This document shows, in pieces, positions 2,370 to 51,751 of a DNA stretch of 64,000 nucleotides; the first letter of the stretch is position 1; every line of letters starts with the position of its first letter. Position numbers and translations under genes: made by a program. The notes beneath the pieces are model-generated. The model was not told the DNA's origin. It did no database searches and saw only the letters and a list, made by a program, of their open reading frames with translations. Source of the DNA: Microbacterium esteraromaticum (lineage in GTDB: Bacteria > Actinomycetota > Actinomycetes > Actinomycetales > Microbacteriaceae); assembly GCF_028747645.1 (NCBI RefSeq), contig NZ_CP118100.1, positions 2,604,001 through 2,668,000 of the forward strand, given 5' to 3'.

Positions 2370-3688
2370 CTCAGGAGCCCTTCGTAGTGGCGCTGCTGCA
2401 GCTGCGCGTCGATCTGCTTCACCGTCTCAAGGCCGACACCCACGATGATCAGGATCGAGGCGCCGCCGAACGGGAAGTTCTGGTTCGCCTGCACCGTCGC
2501 CAGCGCGATCAGCGGGATCAGCGCGACGAAGCCGAGGTAGAGGGAACCGGGGAACGTGATCCTCGTGATCACGTAGTCGAGGTATTCCGCGGTCGGTCGT
2601 CCCGCGCGGATGCCGGGGATGAACCCGCCGTACTTCTTCATGTTGTCGGCGACCTCGACAGGGTTGAACGTGATCGCGACGTAGAAGTAGGTGAAGCCGA
2701 TGATCAGCAGGAAGTACACGGCCATGTACAGCGGCTGGTCGCCCGAGGCGAGGTACTGGTTGACCCACACCACCCACGCGGCCGGCTCGCTGCCATCGGT
2801 GGGGGTGTTGAACTGCGCCACCAGCATCGGAAGGTACAGCAGCGACGAGGCGAAGATGATCGGGATGACGCCCGCCATGTTGACCTTGATCGGGATGTAG
2901 GTGTTCGTCCCACCGTAGGTGCGGCGTCCGACCATGCGCTTCGCGTACTGAACGGGCACGCGGCGCTGCGACTGCTCGACGAACACCACCATGCCCATCA
3001 CGACGATGCCGATCAGCAGCACGAGCAGGAAGACCTCGAAGCCCTTGGCCTCCCAGATGCCCCACATGGCGGCCGGGAAGGTCGCGGCGATCGAGGTGAA
3101 GATCAGCAGCGACATGCCGTTGCCGATACCGCGCTCGGTGACCAGCTCGGCGAACCACATGATCAGACCCGTGCCTGCGGTCATCGCCATGATGATGAGC
3201 AGCTGCGCCCACCACACGTCATTGGTCAGCAGGTTGTTGCAGGCCGCGACGTCGGTCGTGCCGAACAGCTGACCGCTGCGCGCCACCGTCACCAGGGTCG
3301 CCGACTGCAGCAGTGCGAGGGCGATGGTCAGGTAGCGGGTGTACTGCGTCAGCTTGCTCTGGCCGGCCTGGCCCTCTTTGTGCAGCGCTTCGAAGTGCGG
3401 GATGACCACACGCAGCAGCTGCGTGATGATCGTCGCGGTGATGTATGGCATCACACCGAGCGCGAAGATCGACAGCTGCAACAGCGCGCCACCGGAGAAC
3501 AGGTTCACGAGGCCCAGCAGGCCGTCAGTGCCGGCGTTCGCCGCGAGGCACTGCTCGACGTTCGGGAAGTTCACGAACGGAGCAGGCACATTCGAGCCGA
3601 GACGGTACAGCGCGATGATGCCGATGGTGAAAAGGATCTTCCGCCGCAGATCAGGTGTGCGGAAGATTCGCGCGATGGCGCTAAACAA
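2366..3688 (-). CDS. secY: Preprotein translocase channel subunit SecY, TTG start
   Basis: Central pore of the Sec translocon, which exports or inserts proteins together with SecE and SecG and with SecA or the ribosome. It shows ten hydrophobic segments and the family signature KRTYGG-like loop (RRTYGG) before a helix. The start is taken as TTG at 3688 because it is preceded at 7 nt by the perfect ribosome binding site AGGAGG and gives the conserved beginning FSAIARIFRTPDLRRKI. A longer reading would add 21 residues unlike the family. The product is 440 residues, the normal length. It is separated from rplO by 113 nt that include a hairpin. Confidence 0.95.
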   Translation of the reverse strand: MFSAIARIFRTPDLRRKILFTIGIIALYRLGSNVPAPFVNFPNVEQCLAANAGTDGLLGLVNLFSGGALLQLSIFALGVMPYITATIITQLLRVVIPHFEALHKEGQAGQSKLTQYTRYLTIALALLQSATLVTVARSGQLFGTTDVAACNNLLTNDVWWAQLLIIMAMTAGTGLIMWFAELVTERGIGNGMSLLIFTSIAATFPAAMWGIWEAKGFEVFLLVLLIGIVVMGMVVFVEQSQRRVPVQYAKRMVGRRTYGGTNTYIPIKVNMAGVIPIIFASSLLYLPMLVAQFNTPTDGSEPAAWVVWVNQYLASGDQPLYMAVYFLLIIGFTYFYVAITFNPVEVADNMKKYGGFIPGIRAGRPTAEYLDYVITRITFPGSLYLGFVALIPLIALATVQANQNFPFGGASILIIVGVGLETVKQIDAQLQQRHYEGLLR

Positions 3689-3752
3689 GGGCGTTCCTCC
3701 TGAAGGGATTGCCGAACGTCGAAGGACGGCCGAATGTCCAGAGTAACGCAAA

Positions 3753-3781
3753 GGAGGGGCCGGAGAATCTCCGACCCCTCC
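3753..3781 (-). terminator. Hairpin between rplO and secY
   Basis: The arms GGAGGGG and CCCCTCC enclose a second stem CGGAG/CTCCG and a 3-nt loop. The one non-Watson-Crick position is U-G in minus-strand RNA but C-A in plus-strand RNA, which supports function in the minus-strand transcript. The run after it (TTTGCG) is weak, so partial termination or RNA processing between rplO and secY is more likely than a full stop. Confidence 0.6.
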
Positions 3782-3801
3782 TCGCGTTCACGACGGGACT
3801 A

Positions 3802-4350
3802 TCAGTTGACCGAACCGCCGGCGGCGACGATCTTCTGCTCGGCGCTGCCCGAGACCTTGTCGACCGACACCGTGAGCTTGACCGAGATGTCGCCGTCGCC
3901 GAGGACCTTGACCTTCTCGTTCTTGCGGACGGCGCCCTTTGCGACCAGGTCGCTGACGGTGACATCGCCACCGGCCGGGTAGAGCTCGGCGAGCTTGGCC
4001 AGGTTCACAACCTGGTACTCGACTCGGAACGGGTTCTTGAACCCGCGCAGCTTCGGGGTGCGCATGTGCAGCGGCATCTGCCCACCCTCGAAGCCAACCC
4101 GCACGGTGTTGCGGGCCTTGGTGCCCTTGGTTCCGCGACCGGCCGTCTTACCCTTCGAGCCCTCACCGCGACCCACGCGGGTCTTGGCGGTGTTGGCACC
4201 CGGGACGGGACGGAGGTGGTGCACCTTCAGAACGGCGGGACGCGCTGCCGGAGCAGCCTTCGTCTCAGCTTTCTTGGATGCAGCAGCCTTCTTGGCGGCG
4301 GGCTTCTTCGTGGCCTTCTCGGCCTCGACGGCCTCGTTCTTCTCAGCCAT
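3802..4350 (-). CDS. rplO: 50S ribosomal protein L15 with Ala/Lys-rich N-terminal extension
   Basis: Large-subunit assembly protein. The conserved L15 body begins near residue 41 ([12 protein letters not shown]) with the glycine-rich [15 protein letters not shown] segment and ends in the usual [14 protein letters not shown] fold. Residues 1-40 are a low-complexity lysine and alanine tail with no counterpart in E. coli L15, so the protein is 182 residues rather than about 145. Its ATG shares one base with the rpmD stop (TAATG). Confidence 0.97.
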
Positions 4351-4535
4351 TAGTCGATCTCCTCAACCTTGACGAGGTGAGCGACGGTGCGGACGTAGCC
4401 GCGCGTCTGGGCGTCGTCGGGACGGACGACCGAGTCGCCGATCCGCTTGAGGCCGAGCGAACGCAGCGTGTCGCGCTGGTTCTGCTTCTCACTCACCTTG
4501 GACTTCACCTGCGTGACCTTGAGGCGCGCGGCCAT
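4350..4535 (-). CDS. rpmD: 50S ribosomal protein L30
   Basis: A 61-residue small protein of the large subunit near the 5S rRNA. The body [20 protein letters not shown], the following [15 protein letters not shown] and the last strand [11 protein letters not shown] match the family over its full length. It is squeezed between rpsE (1-base overlap, TGATG) and rplO (1-base overlap, TAATG), so all three are translationally coupled. Confidence 0.96.
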
Positions 4536-5218
4536 CAGGCACCTACCTTCTGCGCAGCGGCGGCGGCAGCGGCCTTCGCCTCGTTGCGGATGATGATCTC
4601 GGGCACGACCGCGTCGTAGTCGAGACCACGACGGGCGGCCACGGCGCGCGGCTCCTCGAGGCCCTGCAGGGCCTCGACGGTCGCGTGCACGATGTTGATC
4701 GTGTTCGACGAACCGAGCGACTTCGACAGGACGTCGTGGATGCCAGCGCACTCGAGCACGGCGCGGACCGGGCCGCCGGCGATAACACCGGTACCGGCAG
4801 CGGCCGGACGCAGCAGCACAACACCGGCTGCGGCCTCACCCTGCACGGGGTGCGGGATGGTCGAACCGACGCGCGGGACGCGGAAGAAGTTGCGCTTGGC
4901 CTCTTCGACACCCTTCGAGATAGCCAGGGGCACCTCGCGGGCCTTGCCGTAGCCGACGCCCACCAGACCGTTGCCGTCACCGACGACCACGAGAGCGGTG
5001 AAGCTGAAGCGACGTCCACCCTTCACGACCTTTGAGACGCGGTTGATGGTGACGACGCGCTCGAGGAACTGGTTGTCCCCACGGTCGCGCGAGTTGCGGT
5101 CGCGGCTCTGACCGCGGTCGCGGCCTCCGCGACGGCCGTCACGCTGCTCGCGCTGCGGCTCGGCCTGAGCCTCGGCAGGAGCGGTTTCGGTCACTTCGTT
5201 CTCCTTGTTGTCACTCAC
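4535..5218 (-). CDS. rpsE: 30S ribosomal protein S5 with Arg/Asp/Gly-rich N-terminal tail
   Basis: Small-subunit protein needed for decoding accuracy and the site of spectinomycin resistance changes. The N-terminal double-stranded-RNA-binding fold starts near residue 51 ([15 protein letters not shown]) and includes the unaltered spectinomycin loop VKGGRR; the C-terminal domain ends with an alanine-rich helix. Residues 1-50 are acidic and then rich in RGG and RD repeats, making the protein 227 residues against about 166 in E. coli. The start overlaps the rplR stop by 4 bases. Confidence 0.97.
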
Positions 5219-5574
5219 AGTGCCAGCCCCCCTTCGCGGGCGCCATCGGCGATGGCTGCGACACGACCGGCGTAGCGGTTGCCGCCACGGTCGAACACTG
5301 CCTCGGAAACGCCGGCGGCCTTCGCACGCTCAGCGACGAGCTCGCCCACCTTGCGTGCCTTGGCGGTCTTGTCACCGTCGAAGGAGCGCAGGTCGGTCTC
5401 GAGCGTGGAAGCGGATGCCACGGTGTGACCCTTGGCGTCGTCGACCAGCTGCACGAAGATGTGACGAGCAGAGCGGTTGACGACCAGACGCGGGCGCAGC
5501 TCGGTGCCGACGATCTTCTTGCGAAGACGGGCGTGGCGACGCGCGCGGGCGGCGGACTTGGACTTCACAGCCAT
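5215..5574 (-). CDS. rplR: 50S ribosomal protein L18
   Basis: Binds 5S rRNA in the central protuberance. The 119-residue protein carries the basic N-terminus [14 protein letters not shown], the core [16 protein letters not shown] and the C-terminal [15 protein letters not shown] motif. It overlaps rpsE by 4 bases and follows rplF by only 2 nt in the spc operon. Confidence 0.97.
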
Positions 5575-5576
5575 GG

Positions 5577-6113
5577 TTACTTACCAGCCTTTCCGGCCTT
5601 GCGACGCACGACCTCGCCGGCGTAGCGCACACCCTTACCCTTGTACGGCTCGGGCTTGCGGATCTTGCGGATGTTCGCAGCTGCCTCGCCGACAGCCTGC
5701 TTGTCGATGCCACTGACCGTCAGCTTGTTGGTGCCCTCGACCGTCAGCGTGATGCCGGCGGGCGGCTCGATGACGACCGGGTGCGAGAAGCCGAGGGCGA
5801 ACTCGACCGAGCTGCCCTTCTGCTGCACGCGGTAACCGGTGCCGACGACCTCAAGGCCCTTGGTGTAGCCCTGGGTGACGCCGATGATGTTGTTGTTGAT
5901 GAGCGTACGGGTCAGGCCGTGCAGTGCACGCGACTCACGCTCGTCGTCCGGACGGGTGACCAGAACCTGGTTCTCCTCGACCGTGATCTCGATGGGACGG
6001 GCCAGTTCGAGCGTCAGCTCGCCCTTGGGGCCCTTGACTGCGACCTCACGGCCGTCGACCGAAACGGTCACGCCCGCGGGAATGTCGATGGGAAGTCGTC
6101 CGATACGCGACAT
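5577..6113 (-). CDS. rplF: 50S ribosomal protein L6
   Basis: Large-subunit protein near the factor-binding site. It has the usual two duplicated domains: [15 protein letters not shown] at the start and the conserved C-terminal signature [14 protein letters not shown]. Its 178 residues match the family length. It is 6 nt from rpsH and 2 nt from rplR in the operon. Confidence 0.97.
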
Positions 6114-6119
6114 GTCAGA

Positions 6120-6518
6120 TCACCACACGTAGGCGAGAACTTCTCCGCCCACGCCCTTCTGCTCAGCCTGACGGTCGGTGAGAAGACCGGAGGAGGTGGA
6201 CAGGATGGCAACGCCCAGGCCGCCGAGGACCGAAGGCAGTTCGGTCGACTTCGCGTAGACGCGCAGACCGGGCTTCGACACGCGCTTGATGCCGGCGATG
6301 GAGCGCTCACGGTTGGGGCCGTACTTGAGCGACAGGGTGAGGTTGCTGCCGACGCGCGCGTCGGTGACCTCGAAGCCAGAGATGTAGCCCTCCTGCTGGA
6401 GGATCTCGGCGATGTTCGTCTTGAGCTTGCTCGACGGCATGGTCACGGAGTCGTGGTGCGCCGAGTTCGCGTTGCGCAGACGGGTCAGCATGTCTGCGAC
6501 CGGGTCTGTCATCGTCAT
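6120..6518 (-). CDS. rpsH: 30S ribosomal protein S8
   Basis: Binds 16S rRNA helix 21 early in assembly and represses the spc operon in E. coli. The 132-residue protein begins [18 protein letters not shown] and ends with the conserved [11 protein letters not shown]. An AAAGGAAAA ribosome binding site precedes the ATG. The gene before it in transcription order is rplE, 145 nt away, where most bacteria have rpsN. Confidence 0.97.
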
Positions 6519-6610
6519 AGTGATTTTCCTTTGTTCATGAGGTTCCGGCTGCCGTTACACGACAGACGGCCTGCTATGAGCCTTGCCCTGCTGGGCACGC
6601 AATCTTCAAT

Positions 6611-6657
6611 TGTACGGGGTGTGGGGAGGGGCGCCGTACAGCTCCCCTCCCCACACC
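6611..6657 (-). terminator. Strong 14-bp hairpin in the rplE-rpsH gap, with an alternative pairing
   Basis: In minus-strand RNA the arms at 6657-6644 and 6631-6618 form a perfect 14-bp stem (GGUGUGGGGAGGGG with CCCCUCCCCACACC) around a 12-nt loop. Loop bases UGUACGG (6640-6634) are also exactly complementary to CCGUACA (6617-6611) just after the stem, giving a competing 7-bp structure. No T-run follows, so this is better read as an attenuator, processing site or protein-binding leader for rpsH than as a plain terminator. The rest of the 145-nt gap (6519-6663) contains no S14 gene. Confidence 0.6.
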
Positions 6658-6663
6658 GCCGGA

Positions 6664-7230
6664 TCACGCTGCGGCGTCAGCGGCCTTGAACGGGAAGCCG
6701 AGCGCACGCAGCAGAGCGCGGCCCTCGTCGTCCGTCTTGGCCGTGGTGACCACGGTGATGTCGAAGCCGCGGACGCGGTCGATCTTGTCCTGATCGATCT
6801 CGTGGAACACGCTCTGCTCCTGGAGACCGAAGGTGTAGTTGCCGTTGCCGTCGAACTGGTCACCCGACAGGCCGCGGAAGTCGCGGATGCGGGGCAGAGC
6901 CAGGTTCACCAGGCGGTCGACGAACTCCCACGCGCGGTCGCCACGCAGGGTGACGTGCGCACCGATGGCCTGACCCTCACGCAGCTTGAACTGCGCGATG
7001 GACTTGCGGGCCTTCGTGACGACCGGCTTCTGACCGGTGATCTTGGTGAGGTCGGCGATGGCGCCCTCGATCACCTTGCTGTCGCGAGCTGCCTCGCCGA
7101 CACCGGTGTTGACGACAACCTTGACCAGGCCGGGGATCTGCATGACGTTGGCGTAGCCGAACTGCTCCTGCAGAGCCTTCTTGATCTCGGTGTTGTACTT
7201 CTGCTTCAGGCGGGGCTGCGTAGCTGCCAT
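6664..7230 (-). CDS. rplE: 50S ribosomal protein L5
   Basis: Binds 5S rRNA and contacts the P-site tRNA. The 188-residue sequence includes [19 protein letters not shown], the [16 protein letters not shown] segment and the [19 protein letters not shown] end typical of L5. It overlaps rplX by one base at its start and is followed by the hairpin gap before rpsH. Confidence 0.97.
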
Positions 7231-7960: not shown

Positions 7961-8262
7961 TTGGCCTTCTCCAGAATCTCAACCAGACGCCAGCGCTTGG
8001 TGGCGCTCAGCGGCCGGGTCTCGTTGATGAGGACCAGGTCGCCGATACCGGCGGTGTTGTTCTCGTCGTGCGCCTTGACCTTCTCGGTGCGGCGGATGAC
8101 CTTGCCGTAGAGCGGGTGCTTCACGCGGTCTTCGACCTCGACGACGATGGTCTTGTCCATCTTGTCGCTGACGACGTAGCCACGACGGGCCTTGCGGTAC
8201 CCGCGGGCGTCGGCGTCGCGCACGTCGTGCTCGGCGTGCTCTGCTGCCTTCTTCTCAGCCAT
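7957..8262 (-). CDS. rpsQ: 30S ribosomal protein S17
   Basis: Primary 16S rRNA-binding protein of the body domain. The OB-fold core [20 protein letters not shown] followed by [13 protein letters not shown] is clear, preceded by an extra charged N-terminal stretch of about 25 residues; total length is 101. The 1-base overlap with rpmC and the 4-base overlap with rplN show tight coupling. Confidence 0.97.
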
Positions 8263-21172: not shown

Positions 21173-21257
21173 GTTCGCAACTCCGGAAGAACGGCCCTGC
21201 ACCGGGCAGAATCCGACGTGGGCGCCAGTCCGCGGGAGTTTCTCCGGAGTTGTGAAC
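21173..21257. repeat. 85-bp element with 15-bp terminal inverted repeats, intergenic copy
   Basis: The ends GTTCGCAACTCCGGA (21173-21187) and TCCGGAGTTGTGAAC (21243-21257) are inverted repeats matching at 14 of 15 positions. The same 85-bp length and nearly the same ends occur in opposite orientation at 51230-51314. Read in the other strand, the first 20 nt and the last 16 nt are identical between the copies; the interior differs, apart from a shared GCAGAATCCG and GC-rich inner hairpins. It starts 18 nt past the GH13 stop. No target duplication is visible. Confidence 0.8.
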
Positions 21258-50080: not shown

Positions 50081-51751
50081 ATGTCATCACTCACCTCCAC
50101 CGCGCCCGTCACCTTCGACGGGCTCACCCACACCTGGCCTGACGGGACCGTCGCGCTCGACCAGCTGACCGGGGCGATCGGCCCCGGCCGCACCGGGCTG
50201 GTCGGCCGCAACGGGTCGGGCAAGACGATGCTGCTGCGTCTGCTCGCCGGCGATCTGCACCCGACATCGGGTCACGTCACCATGAGCGGCGAGGTCGCGT
50301 ACCTGCCGCAGCGTCTCACCCTCGACACCGGCCGTCGGATCCCAGAACTGCTCGGCGTCGCCGTACCGCTGGACGCGGTACGCGCGATCGCCGCGGGCGA
50401 CGTCGACCCGGCGCACTTCGATGCGGTCGGCAACGACTGGGACATCGAAGCGCGCGCCGAAGCAGCGCTCGCCGAGGCGGGCCTCGATCCGTCGTTCCTC
50501 GACCGCACGGTCGGTGAACTCTCGGGCGGTGAAGCGATGCTCGTGGCGGTGGCGGGCATCCGTCTGCGCCGCGCCCCGATCACCCTGCTCGACGAGCCCA
50601 CCAACAATCTCGACCGCGGGGCGCGAGCACGCCTGGCCGATATGGTGCGCGCCTGGAGAGGCGTACTCATCGTGGTCAGTCACGACGTCTCGCTGCTGGA
50701 GCTGATGGATGCCACGGCCGAGCTCTACCAGAACCGTCTCACCGTGTTCGGCGGCCCGTACTCGCAGTGGCGCGCCTGGTTGGATGCCGAGCAGGCCGCG
50801 GCCGAGCAGGCCGAACGCGACGCCAAGCAGGCGCTGAAGAGAGAGAAGCGTCAACGGATCGAGGCTGAGCTGAAGCTCGCCACACGCGCGCAGACGGCCC
50901 GCAAGGCCGAGCACGAGAAGCGGGTTCCGAAGATCATCGCCGGCGGGCGCAAGAGCGCTGCGCAGGTGTCGGCCGGTCGGCTGCGCACCGAGATGGCCGG
51001 AAAGGAGGATGCCGCCCGGCAGGCACTGGATGACGCTGGGCACCGTGTGCGCGACGACGAGACGATGAAGATCGAGTTGCCTGACCCGCACGTGCCCGCG
51101 AGCAGGCGGATCGCGACGCTCGGCGACGGCGAACGGTCATGGGTGATCCAGGGGCCCGAGCGGGTCGCTCTCATCGGCGCGAACGGGGCGGGCAAGACCA
51201 CACTGCTGCGCCGGCTGCTGGCATCCGCTGTTCACAACTCCGGAGAAACGGGCCGGATCGGCCCGGATTCTGCTGTTCCGGATGGTCTCGGGCAGATTTT
51301 CCGGAGTTGCGAACCGCACGTCGACCGCATCGGGTACCTTTCGCAGCGCGTCGACGGGCTCGACGATCGCGCCTCGGTGATCGCGAACGTGGCGGCGTCG
51401 GCACCGCACGTGCCCGACAAGCAGCTGCGCAACCGGCTGGCGCGCTTCCTCATCCGTGGGGCGGCCGTCGACCGGCCCGTGGCGGCACTGTCGGGCGGCG
51501 AGCGATTCCGGGTTGCCCTGGCGACGTTGCTGCTCGCCGATCCCGCTCCGCAGCTCGTGGTGCTCGATGAGCCGACGAACAACCTCGATCTCGATACGGT
51601 CGGGCAGCTGGTGCGGGCGCTGCGCGCCTACCGGGGTGCCGTGCTGGTCGTCAGTCACGACGACGTGTTCCTCGCGAGTCTCGACATCGACCTGACGCTG
51701 GAAGTGTCGGTCGGCGACGACGCAGAGCGGATGCTGCGCGAGGTGCCGTGA
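50081..51751 (+). CDS. ABC-F family ATPase carrying an in-frame 85-bp repeat
   Basis: A 556-residue cytosolic protein with two ABC domains and no membrane part, the ABC-F layout (ribosome-acting ATPases, some giving antibiotic resistance). Domain 1 has GRNGSGKT (42-49), LSGGE near 147 and LLDEPTNNLD; the linker is a charged coiled coil (about 245-290); domain 2 has GANGAGKTT near 366, LSGGE and VLDEPTNNLD. Between the second P-loop and its Q-loop (GYLSQR), residues 384-412 are encoded by the 85-bp repeat. In domain 1 the equivalent stretch is only about 14 residues. GGGAG precedes the ATG. Confidence 0.92.
   Translation: MSSLTSTAPVTFDGLTHTWPDGTVALDQLTGAIGPGRTGLVGRNGSGKTMLLRLLAGDLHPTSGHVTMSGEVAYLPQRLTLDTGRRIPELLGVAVPLDAVRAIAAGDVDPAHFDAVGNDWDIEARAEAALAEAGLDPSFLDRTVGELSGGEAMLVAVAGIRLRRAPITLLDEPTNNLDRGARARLADMVRAWRGVLIVVSHDVSLLELMDATAELYQNRLTVFGGPYSQWRAWLDAEQAAAEQAERDAKQALKREKRQRIEAELKLATRAQTARKAEHEKRVPKIIAGGRKSAAQVSAGRLRTEMAGKEDAARQALDDAGHRVRDDETMKIELPDPHVPASRRIATLGDGERSWVIQGPERVALIGANGAGKTTLLRRLLASAVHNSGETGRIGPDSAVPDGLGQIFRSCEPHVDRIGYLSQRVDGLDDRASVIANVAASAPHVPDKQLRNRLARFLIRGAAVDRPVAALSGGERFRVALATLLLADPAPQLVVLDEPTNNLDLDTVGQLVRALRAYRGAVLVVSHDDVFLASLDIDLTLEVSVGDDAERMLREVP
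51230..51314. repeat. 85-bp element with terminal inverted repeats inside the ABC-F gene
   Basis: GTTCACAACTCCGGA (51230-51244) and TCCGGAGTTGCGAAC (51300-51314) are inverted ends matching at 14 of 15 positions. The first 20 and last 16 nt equal those of the other copy (21173-21257) read on the opposite strand. The inside contains a GGGCC/GGCCC hairpin and GGATTCTGC, seen in both copies. It encodes AVHNSGETGRIGPDS and onward without a stop, so the host gene stays open. Confidence 0.85.

Follow-up and report, generated by a model that had tools for sequence, protein, structure and literature searches.

The 85-bp element and its locus

The stretch of DNA described here (the window, 64,000 nucleotides in all) covers positions 2604001-2668000 of the Microbacterium esteraromaticum genome, a single contig of 3,197,365 bp. 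This source genome is called G000 below; G095 is a sister strain of the same species, and other G numbers denote the other genomes compared. The window contains an 85-bp element with inverted ends (copy A) inside the coding sequence of an ABC-F family ATPase, together with a further 85-bp element (copy B); both are considered here with the dispersed family to which they belong and with a nuclease whose genes are bracketed by elements of this kind (Table 1). The 15-bp ends of copy A match at 14 of 15 positions (GTTCACAACTCCGGA / GTTCGCAACTCCGGA), as the preliminary description of the window had it, and its statements that copy A lies in frame, leaves the frame open and adds about 20 residues were equally borne out. 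In the 556-aa open reading frame (ORF) the translated element (VHNSGETGRIGPDSAVPDGLGQIFRSCEP) falls between the P-loop at residue 366 and GYLSQ at 418, and the distance from P-loop to Q-loop is 57 residues compared with 36 in domain 1, an excess of about 21. Copy B had been described as a second copy of the same element; this holds for the length and the ends (14/15) and fails for the 55-bp centres, which are alike at just 25-28 positions.

Table 1. Positions of the elements, their parts and associated features (numbers without an L prefix are window positions)
Feature	Position	Strand	Remarks
Copy A, 85-bp element in ABC-F coding sequence	51230..51314	no strand	orthologous copy present in G095
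Copy A, left end (half-site)	51230..51244	+	end search
Copy A, right end (half-site)	51300..51314	-	end search
Copy A, variable 55-bp centre	51245..51299	no strand	10-bp A+T rhythm is a result for the family, not for copy A alone
Copy B, 85-bp element	21173..21257	no strand	no coding-like frame across (composition test)
Copy B, left end	21173..21187	+	end search
Copy B, right end	21243..21257	-	end search
ABC-F family ATPase gene	50081..51751	+	556 aa; copy A in frame at residues 384-412
In-frame copy in TPP enzyme, between central and C-terminal domains	L039:3858-3944, ORF 3198-5015	-	VHNSGK...LSSGVAR
In-frame copy in HrpA-like helicase, between two helicase domains	L028:3752-3837, ORF 3156-7124	+	ALTTPEES...NLRSSEQ
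In-frame copy in methyltransferase, just ahead of SAM-binding domain	L036:3637-3722, ORF 2625-4187	+	RSQLRKNE...ISGVAN
Doubled half-sites	L144:1373-1449, 2440-2516; L133:1246-1329, 2414-2496; L026:1759-1943
IS30-family DNA in G000	L030 about 4198-5446; L024 about 3856-5097; L041 about 1023-2283

On comparing ABC-F orthologues, it was found that an inverted-repeat element of 83-87 or 95-99 bp occupies the copy A site in 38 of the 47 Microbacterium genomes scored. The same 61-residue segment length occurs in 50 of 120 ABC-F protein homologues, among the matches listed. From these comparisons the insertion appears to be old and tolerated, which would argue against the special change of ATPase function that had been suggested for it. 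In G364 (L352), the segment between P-loop and Q-loop carries an unrelated inverted repeat of similar size, GTGAAACGG...CCGTTTCAC, as if the site were open to elements of several kinds.

The element family

The 85-bp repeat belongs to a set of about 27 copies of a DNA module dispersed round the G000 chromosome, 25 of which are paired elements and two of which are split by an IS30-family insertion sequence (IS) element. The exact two-ended pattern gave 18 matches in G000 and none when reversed. With up to two mismatches allowed per single end, 62 half-sites were found against 3 in controls; 49 of these pair at element spacing, 3 lie in the two split elements and 10 are solitary, the 25 paired elements being made up of the half-site pairs plus one further, more diverged left end. 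Of the 28 exact half-sites, 25 have a partner at element spacing, and the 3 without one are again those of the two split elements. Further copies also exist beyond this genome, as a slightly looser two-ended pattern was present in 90 of 366 Microbacterium genomes (control 0 in each row listed); the stricter pattern was found in 0 of 23 genomes of the same order outside Microbacterium.

A coding-like frame spans 6 of the 25 G000 copies in an open-frame composition test; two of these match no Pfam family, and the other four match Pfam families and lie in recognised genes, namely those for the ABC-F protein, a thiamine pyrophosphate (TPP) enzyme, an HrpA-like helicase and a methyltransferase with an S-adenosylmethionine (SAM)-binding domain. 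The remaining 19 copies have no such frame and are classed as intergenic by the composition test alone, no genome annotation being used. In one copy (G000 2793286-2793371, L015:1496-1581) the centre looks promoter-like by eye, with palindromic operators (TTGACG...TACCAT, GTTCACGTGAAC), and similar TGTTGACG/TGTTCACG centres occur in two other species (G088:C12:86952 and G111:C1:726632).

In a logo of 115 distinct elements, nine core letters of which were preset by the search, each end of about 20 bp reads (GTT)CRCAACTCCGGAGAWWC. The span from core to core was 72-75 in 105 and 85-86 in 9 of 114 distinct elements; most elements were retrieved with span limits of 68-93, so that spans beyond these were little tested outside G000. 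The lengths thus found favour about 7 or 8 turns regardless of gene context. The A+T content of aligned centres rises and falls periodically, from about 0.1 to 0.6-0.7; the period is 10.0 bp at span 74 (n=55) and 9.7 bp at span 73 (n=26), and for both spans the periodic power exceeded that of all 2000 within-element shuffles. In an alignment-free test the A+T rhythm was also detected, more weakly, in 95 elements of other types taken from nuclease flanks, as well as in 33 coding ABC-F copies, where it stands in place of the 3-bp codon rhythm of the flanks. The centre may therefore be bendable and make about one turn of wrapping, by which the ends are brought together.

An origin of the repeats as RNA hairpins or terminators would fit the inverted ends and a position mostly outside recognised genes; however, within a single element the two ends change independently at positions 2-3 (GTTC with GTGC), by which the pairing is broken, and the variable part follows a 10-bp phase, the period of the DNA helix. 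This reading is highly improbable. The CGGA-type end contains the palindrome CTCCGGAG, and other types (AATTCAGCAAG) have no such palindrome by eye. An integron attC site, suggested by the AAC/GTT ends, was considered and rejected, since other end types are without AAC/GTT.

The nuclease bracketed by elements

In G095, a 303-aa gene lies between two copies of the element, and its product combines an AbiEi-like DNA-binding fold with a Vsr/homing-type nuclease. E189, D216, E226, D228, H233 and D246 are candidates for invariant residues of the catalytic site. The nuclease ORF occupies the whole stretch between the two copies; no second gene, and no AbiEii toxin gene in a search confined to that stretch, was found there. 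PADLOC returned weak matches only, mostly to AbiEi. One bracketing copy is situated upstream of the nuclease gene and an equal one at its 3' end, in some species overlapping the stop codon. In eight genomes, the best nuclease homologue was bracketed by AACTCCGGA elements in six; in G123 it is a lower, apparently frameshifted homologue that is bracketed in this way, and none so bracketed is left in G000. Such AACTCCGGA brackets were thus found at 7 of 30 loci in the eight genomes, the other 23 being without that end type.

A test independent of any given sequence was then applied to 80 named homologue loci, in which an inverted repeat of 55-115 bp had to match between the upstream and downstream sides (score <=5, a threshold set after the data were seen). 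Matching repeats were found on both sides of 70/80 loci, compared with 0/71 distal controls and 231/1500 cross-paired loci. The end sequences are specific to lineages, examples being GTTCACAACTCCGGA, GTTCACAATTCAGCA, GTACCGATTGCAGGA, GTCCCGCGCTCCGGA and GTCGCAACGGCAGGC. When no fixed end word was used, 14 of 23 paralogue loci had a matching pair of their own (2/23 distal); an earlier notion that paralogues lack elements was rejected, as the fixed end word had missed these pairs. In an order-wide search 18 of 28 new loci qualified against 0/28 distal, including 8 of 14 outside Microbacterium. Each of eight Microbacterium genomes has 3-7 homologues, and within the order 159 of 396 genomes gave matches. 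The nuclease gene lies within 3 kb of mnhG in 24/80 loci, the first 20 listed included, and in the closest loci it is free-standing and downstream of mnhG. It has thus been inherited in place in that clade while the end type changed.

Other nuclease families show doubled half-sites in each arm, CCGAGAACAGG occurring twice at 18 bp and GCACGGATGCAGG twice at 19 bp; the doubled CCGAGAACAGG type also recurs in G000 away from its nuclease. In G123 (C1 513372-515838 and 722436-724009; L129, L132, L140, L150) several apparently frameshifted nuclease copies are accompanied by tandem elements. The frameshifts could possibly be sequencing errors, the genome being rated 68% complete.

Correspondence of element and nuclease types

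The type of the dispersed elements was compared with that of the nuclease. Elements of the AATTCAGCA type were found in 10 of 11 genomes assigned that type and in none of 12 others, the typing of G103 and G209 being taken from the ABC-F copy (flank pair unresolved). Those of the AACTCCGGA type were present in 7/7 genomes of their own type, 2/11 of the AGCA type and 0/5 further ones; the comparison was not blind, as several of the seven were picked for having AACTCCGGA.

At the ABC-F site, the last four end bases equal those of the nuclease flanks of the same genome in 27 of 38 genomes (9 of 47 were left out, having no scorable ABC-F element), whereas 20000 label shuffles averaged 7.8 agreements and reached 18 at most. 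An earlier, stricter count gave 16/24, and 0/20000 was the outcome of a score test run earlier on 35 genomes. At least 17 changes of the label are needed on the ABC-F tree. The sequences of G005 and G318 differ in that both ABC-F ends are switched while the centres are 84% alike, and the ABC-F ends of G318 misfit the ends of its own nuclease flanks. Among nuclease residues, the strongest covariation with the final four bases of the ends was shown by residue 98 (28 sequences; the statistic ignores ancestry). Co-evolution in trans is likely on these comparisons, though unproven beyond shared ancestry.

Change between sister strains

When 22 of the 25 G000 copies were aligned with those of G095, differences were found at 11 of 660 end positions, 91 of 1240 centre positions (one copy accounting for 16 of the 91) and 381 of 12637 flank positions, and no indels were present within elements. 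Hence, ends and length are conserved and the letters of the centre are freer. The faster change of the centre may be plain drift, as the flanks mix coding and intergenic DNA. The remaining three copies had no aligned partner: the first recurs in G095, duplicated along with a few bases of flank; the second falls in a region that has been rearranged; the third, which stands between 21-bp direct repeats in G000, is absent from G095. None of them proves transposition. Elsewhere in G095 (L295, about 7000-7060 and 8035-8095), the palindrome pair GAGATCTGC...GCGCAGATCTC brackets a gene that is hydrolase-like by eye and is absent from the matching region of G000, possibly a repeat-flanked gain or loss.

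Proposed role of the element

Dispersal, preferred spacings, the phased centre, the bracketing of nuclease genes and matching end types can all be read from the sequences, and together they suggest that the element is probably the cognate looped DNA site of the AbiEi-Vsr nuclease, with a layout like that of REPIN-RAYT systems set on an unrelated enzyme. Binding, wrapping, cleavage, copying or mobilisation and a benefit to the host are all proposed from this evidence. The nuclease is a single chain, in which an AbiEi-like DNA-binding half is joined to a Vsr/homing-type PD-(D/E)XK nuclease domain. It would bind each end of ~20 bp directly and sense the centre of ~55 bp by its bendability only, wrapping it ~one turn so that the ends meet. 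Two copies bracket the nuclease gene, with a few to two dozen others dispersed on the chromosome. The gene is vertically inherited in the clade tested, and its product would occasionally copy or maintain elements, as with REPINs and RAYT; different nuclease lineages, like different paralogues within one genome, have separate end sequences.

Several observations speak against this interpretation. The six longest elements are only weakly phased (span 85-86, n=6; 36/2000 shuffles). The score threshold of the 80-locus bracketing test was chosen post hoc, and 10 of the 80 loci had no matching pair. G000 has lost its nuclease copy, and at E<=1e-50 no nuclease is listed for G067 (8 elements) or G094 (3 elements). 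The type of the ABC-F element disagrees with that of the nuclease in 11/38 genomes, and independent-pairs tests, of low power, were not significant (same:opposite 2:1 for CGGA, 2.4:1 for AGGA, 1:0.2 for AGCA and 2.5:0 for CTCA). Also, a clean empty site accompanied by target duplication was not seen, and the absence from G095 of the copy between 21-bp repeats could be a loss in that strain.

The AbiEi-like half could instead be an autoregulating repressor, the dispersed copies being operators of a regulon or decoys. Known AbiEi proteins are described, in the passages available, as autorepressors that act on their promoter by way of inverted repeats; the nuclease gene has a copy upstream of it, the copy at 2793291 has a centre that resembles a promoter or operator by eye, and 19/25 G000 copies have no coding-like spanning frame. 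An operator would, however, leave unexplained the equal copy at the 3' end of that gene, the 4/25 copies within recognised coding sequence and lengths that favour about 7 or 8 turns in any gene context, and this explanation is considered rather unlikely.

The chromosomal position of the copies bears on another possibility. In four complete genomes with all positions listed, out of ten searched, the copies lie toward dnaA, with a pooled median of 0.24 from origin to terminus (Kolmogorov-Smirnov p 1e-8); three of the four were significant singly and G121 was not (p 0.12). A nuclease domesticated as an organiser of the origin domain, a rough mirror of MatP/matS, would agree with this bias, with the phased centre and with the constraint on the ends. 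The half of the chromosome nearer the origin tends to be the better conserved, though, and the bias may simply reflect the survival of old copies there; positions are complete in just 4/10 of the searched genomes, and G000 lives without the nuclease. A role in chromosome architecture is distinctly unlikely.

With the element read as a cognate nuclease site, a widespread group of proteins without an assigned role, helix-turn-helix (HTH) plus DUF559/MTES_1575, would gain a DNA partner readable from sequence, namely its own bracketing element. Each such nuclease would obtain a predicted recognition sequence, a substrate for structural studies and a natural collection of changes in specificity. 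The family also offers insertions in housekeeping-type genes, where the rhythm of the helix period supplants that of codons, and an independent case for the question of why bacteria retain small repeat populations with one cognate enzyme.

Comparison with known systems

In REPIN-RAYT systems, according to the passages available, conserved inverted ends enclose a diverse spacer, copies are dispersed, and the gene of the enzyme is vertically inherited and flanked by repeats (PMC8049555, PMC3116915). The present elements likewise have two conserved inverted ends, a diverse spacer and a dispersed distribution, and their enzyme gene is repeat-flanked and, in the clade tested, vertically inherited (70/80 flanked; mnhG in 24/80). 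In contrast, the enzyme here has AbiEi-HTH and Vsr/EDxHD folds rather than those of an HUH/Y1 tyrosine transposase, the ends do not look like hairpins by eye in all types, and the centre is phased at 10 bp with two preferred lengths, phasing being unmentioned in the REPIN passages just cited. The genome layout is therefore REPtron-like without membership of REPIN-RAYT; if the kind were defined by lifestyle and not by enzyme, the system would stand beside REPIN-RAYT as a variant. More speculatively, a REPtron-like class of independent origin might exist, in which several orthogonal AbiEi-Vsr nucleases per actinobacterial genome each wrap their own ~85-bp phased element in a loop of one turn and seldom copy it; old copies, in fixed places on the chromosome, would have their ends driven to track changes of specificity. 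Among the open-access PubMed Central articles listed, none connected these nucleases with repeats in its title or the opening of its abstract, and nuclease and elements look like one undescribed system.

The antitoxins of AbiE type IV toxin-antitoxin systems (AbiEi, Rv2827c) share the two-domain fold and an inverted-repeat site; in the published passages, AbiE antitoxins bind inverted repeats and AbiEi bends DNA. The present protein differs from them in its nuclease fusion, in the lack of a second gene between the elements and in sites that are dispersed and long (about 85 bp). With EDxHD homing endonucleases and Vsr (I-Bth0305I, Vsr) it shares a Vsr-like catalytic fold. Unlike the former, its gene stands alone near mnhG (24/80 loci), where it is not in an intron or a conserved target gene, and it has dispersed sites of its own. 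Rickettsia palindromic elements, some copies of which occur in frame in proteins, are conserved in sequence from end to end. The likeness to them that had been proposed extends to in-frame reading (4/25 G000 copies) and not to the centre, which is not conserved between copies; a cognate nuclease is, moreover, indicated here.

Insertion sequences in and near the elements

The element had also been taken for a non-autonomous mobile repeat; a dispersed inverted-repeat family with in-frame copies was indeed found, and derivation from an IS was not supported. An ordinary family of miniature inverted-repeat transposable elements (MITEs), with the IS transposase elsewhere or lost, would account for inverted ends, dispersal and short length. 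Against this, all but three of the 28 exact half-sites in G000 have a partner at element spacing, those three lying in the IS30-split elements; the centre is phased, and it is nuclease genes that are bracketed. The likeness along the full length that is expected of MITE copies was not observed, as the centres of copies A and B are alike at only 25-28 of their 55 positions and the logo shows little fixed centre sequence. The sole IS recognised between such ends is of the IS30 family, has different ends of its own and is seated inside an element; no autonomous IS with element ends was recognised in G000, the one genome searched for it, where inter-copy DNA was inspected in one interval (ORF list). 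No target-site duplication was obvious by eye at the copies, apart from the 21-bp direct repeat pair around the G000-only copy. A MITE origin is, on this evidence, very unlikely.

A 1335-bp unit with the same 15-bp ends had looked like an IS30-borne parent of such MITEs; it was rejected when alignment with G095 revealed an IS30 inserted in the centre of an older element. IS targeting of repetitive extragenic palindromes is described for other bacteria in the passages available (PMC1525189). In G000, IS30-family DNA lies in or beside palindromic DNA at 3/3 places seen, a biased sample met while inspecting elements; two are in elements of the family and one is in a different palindrome.
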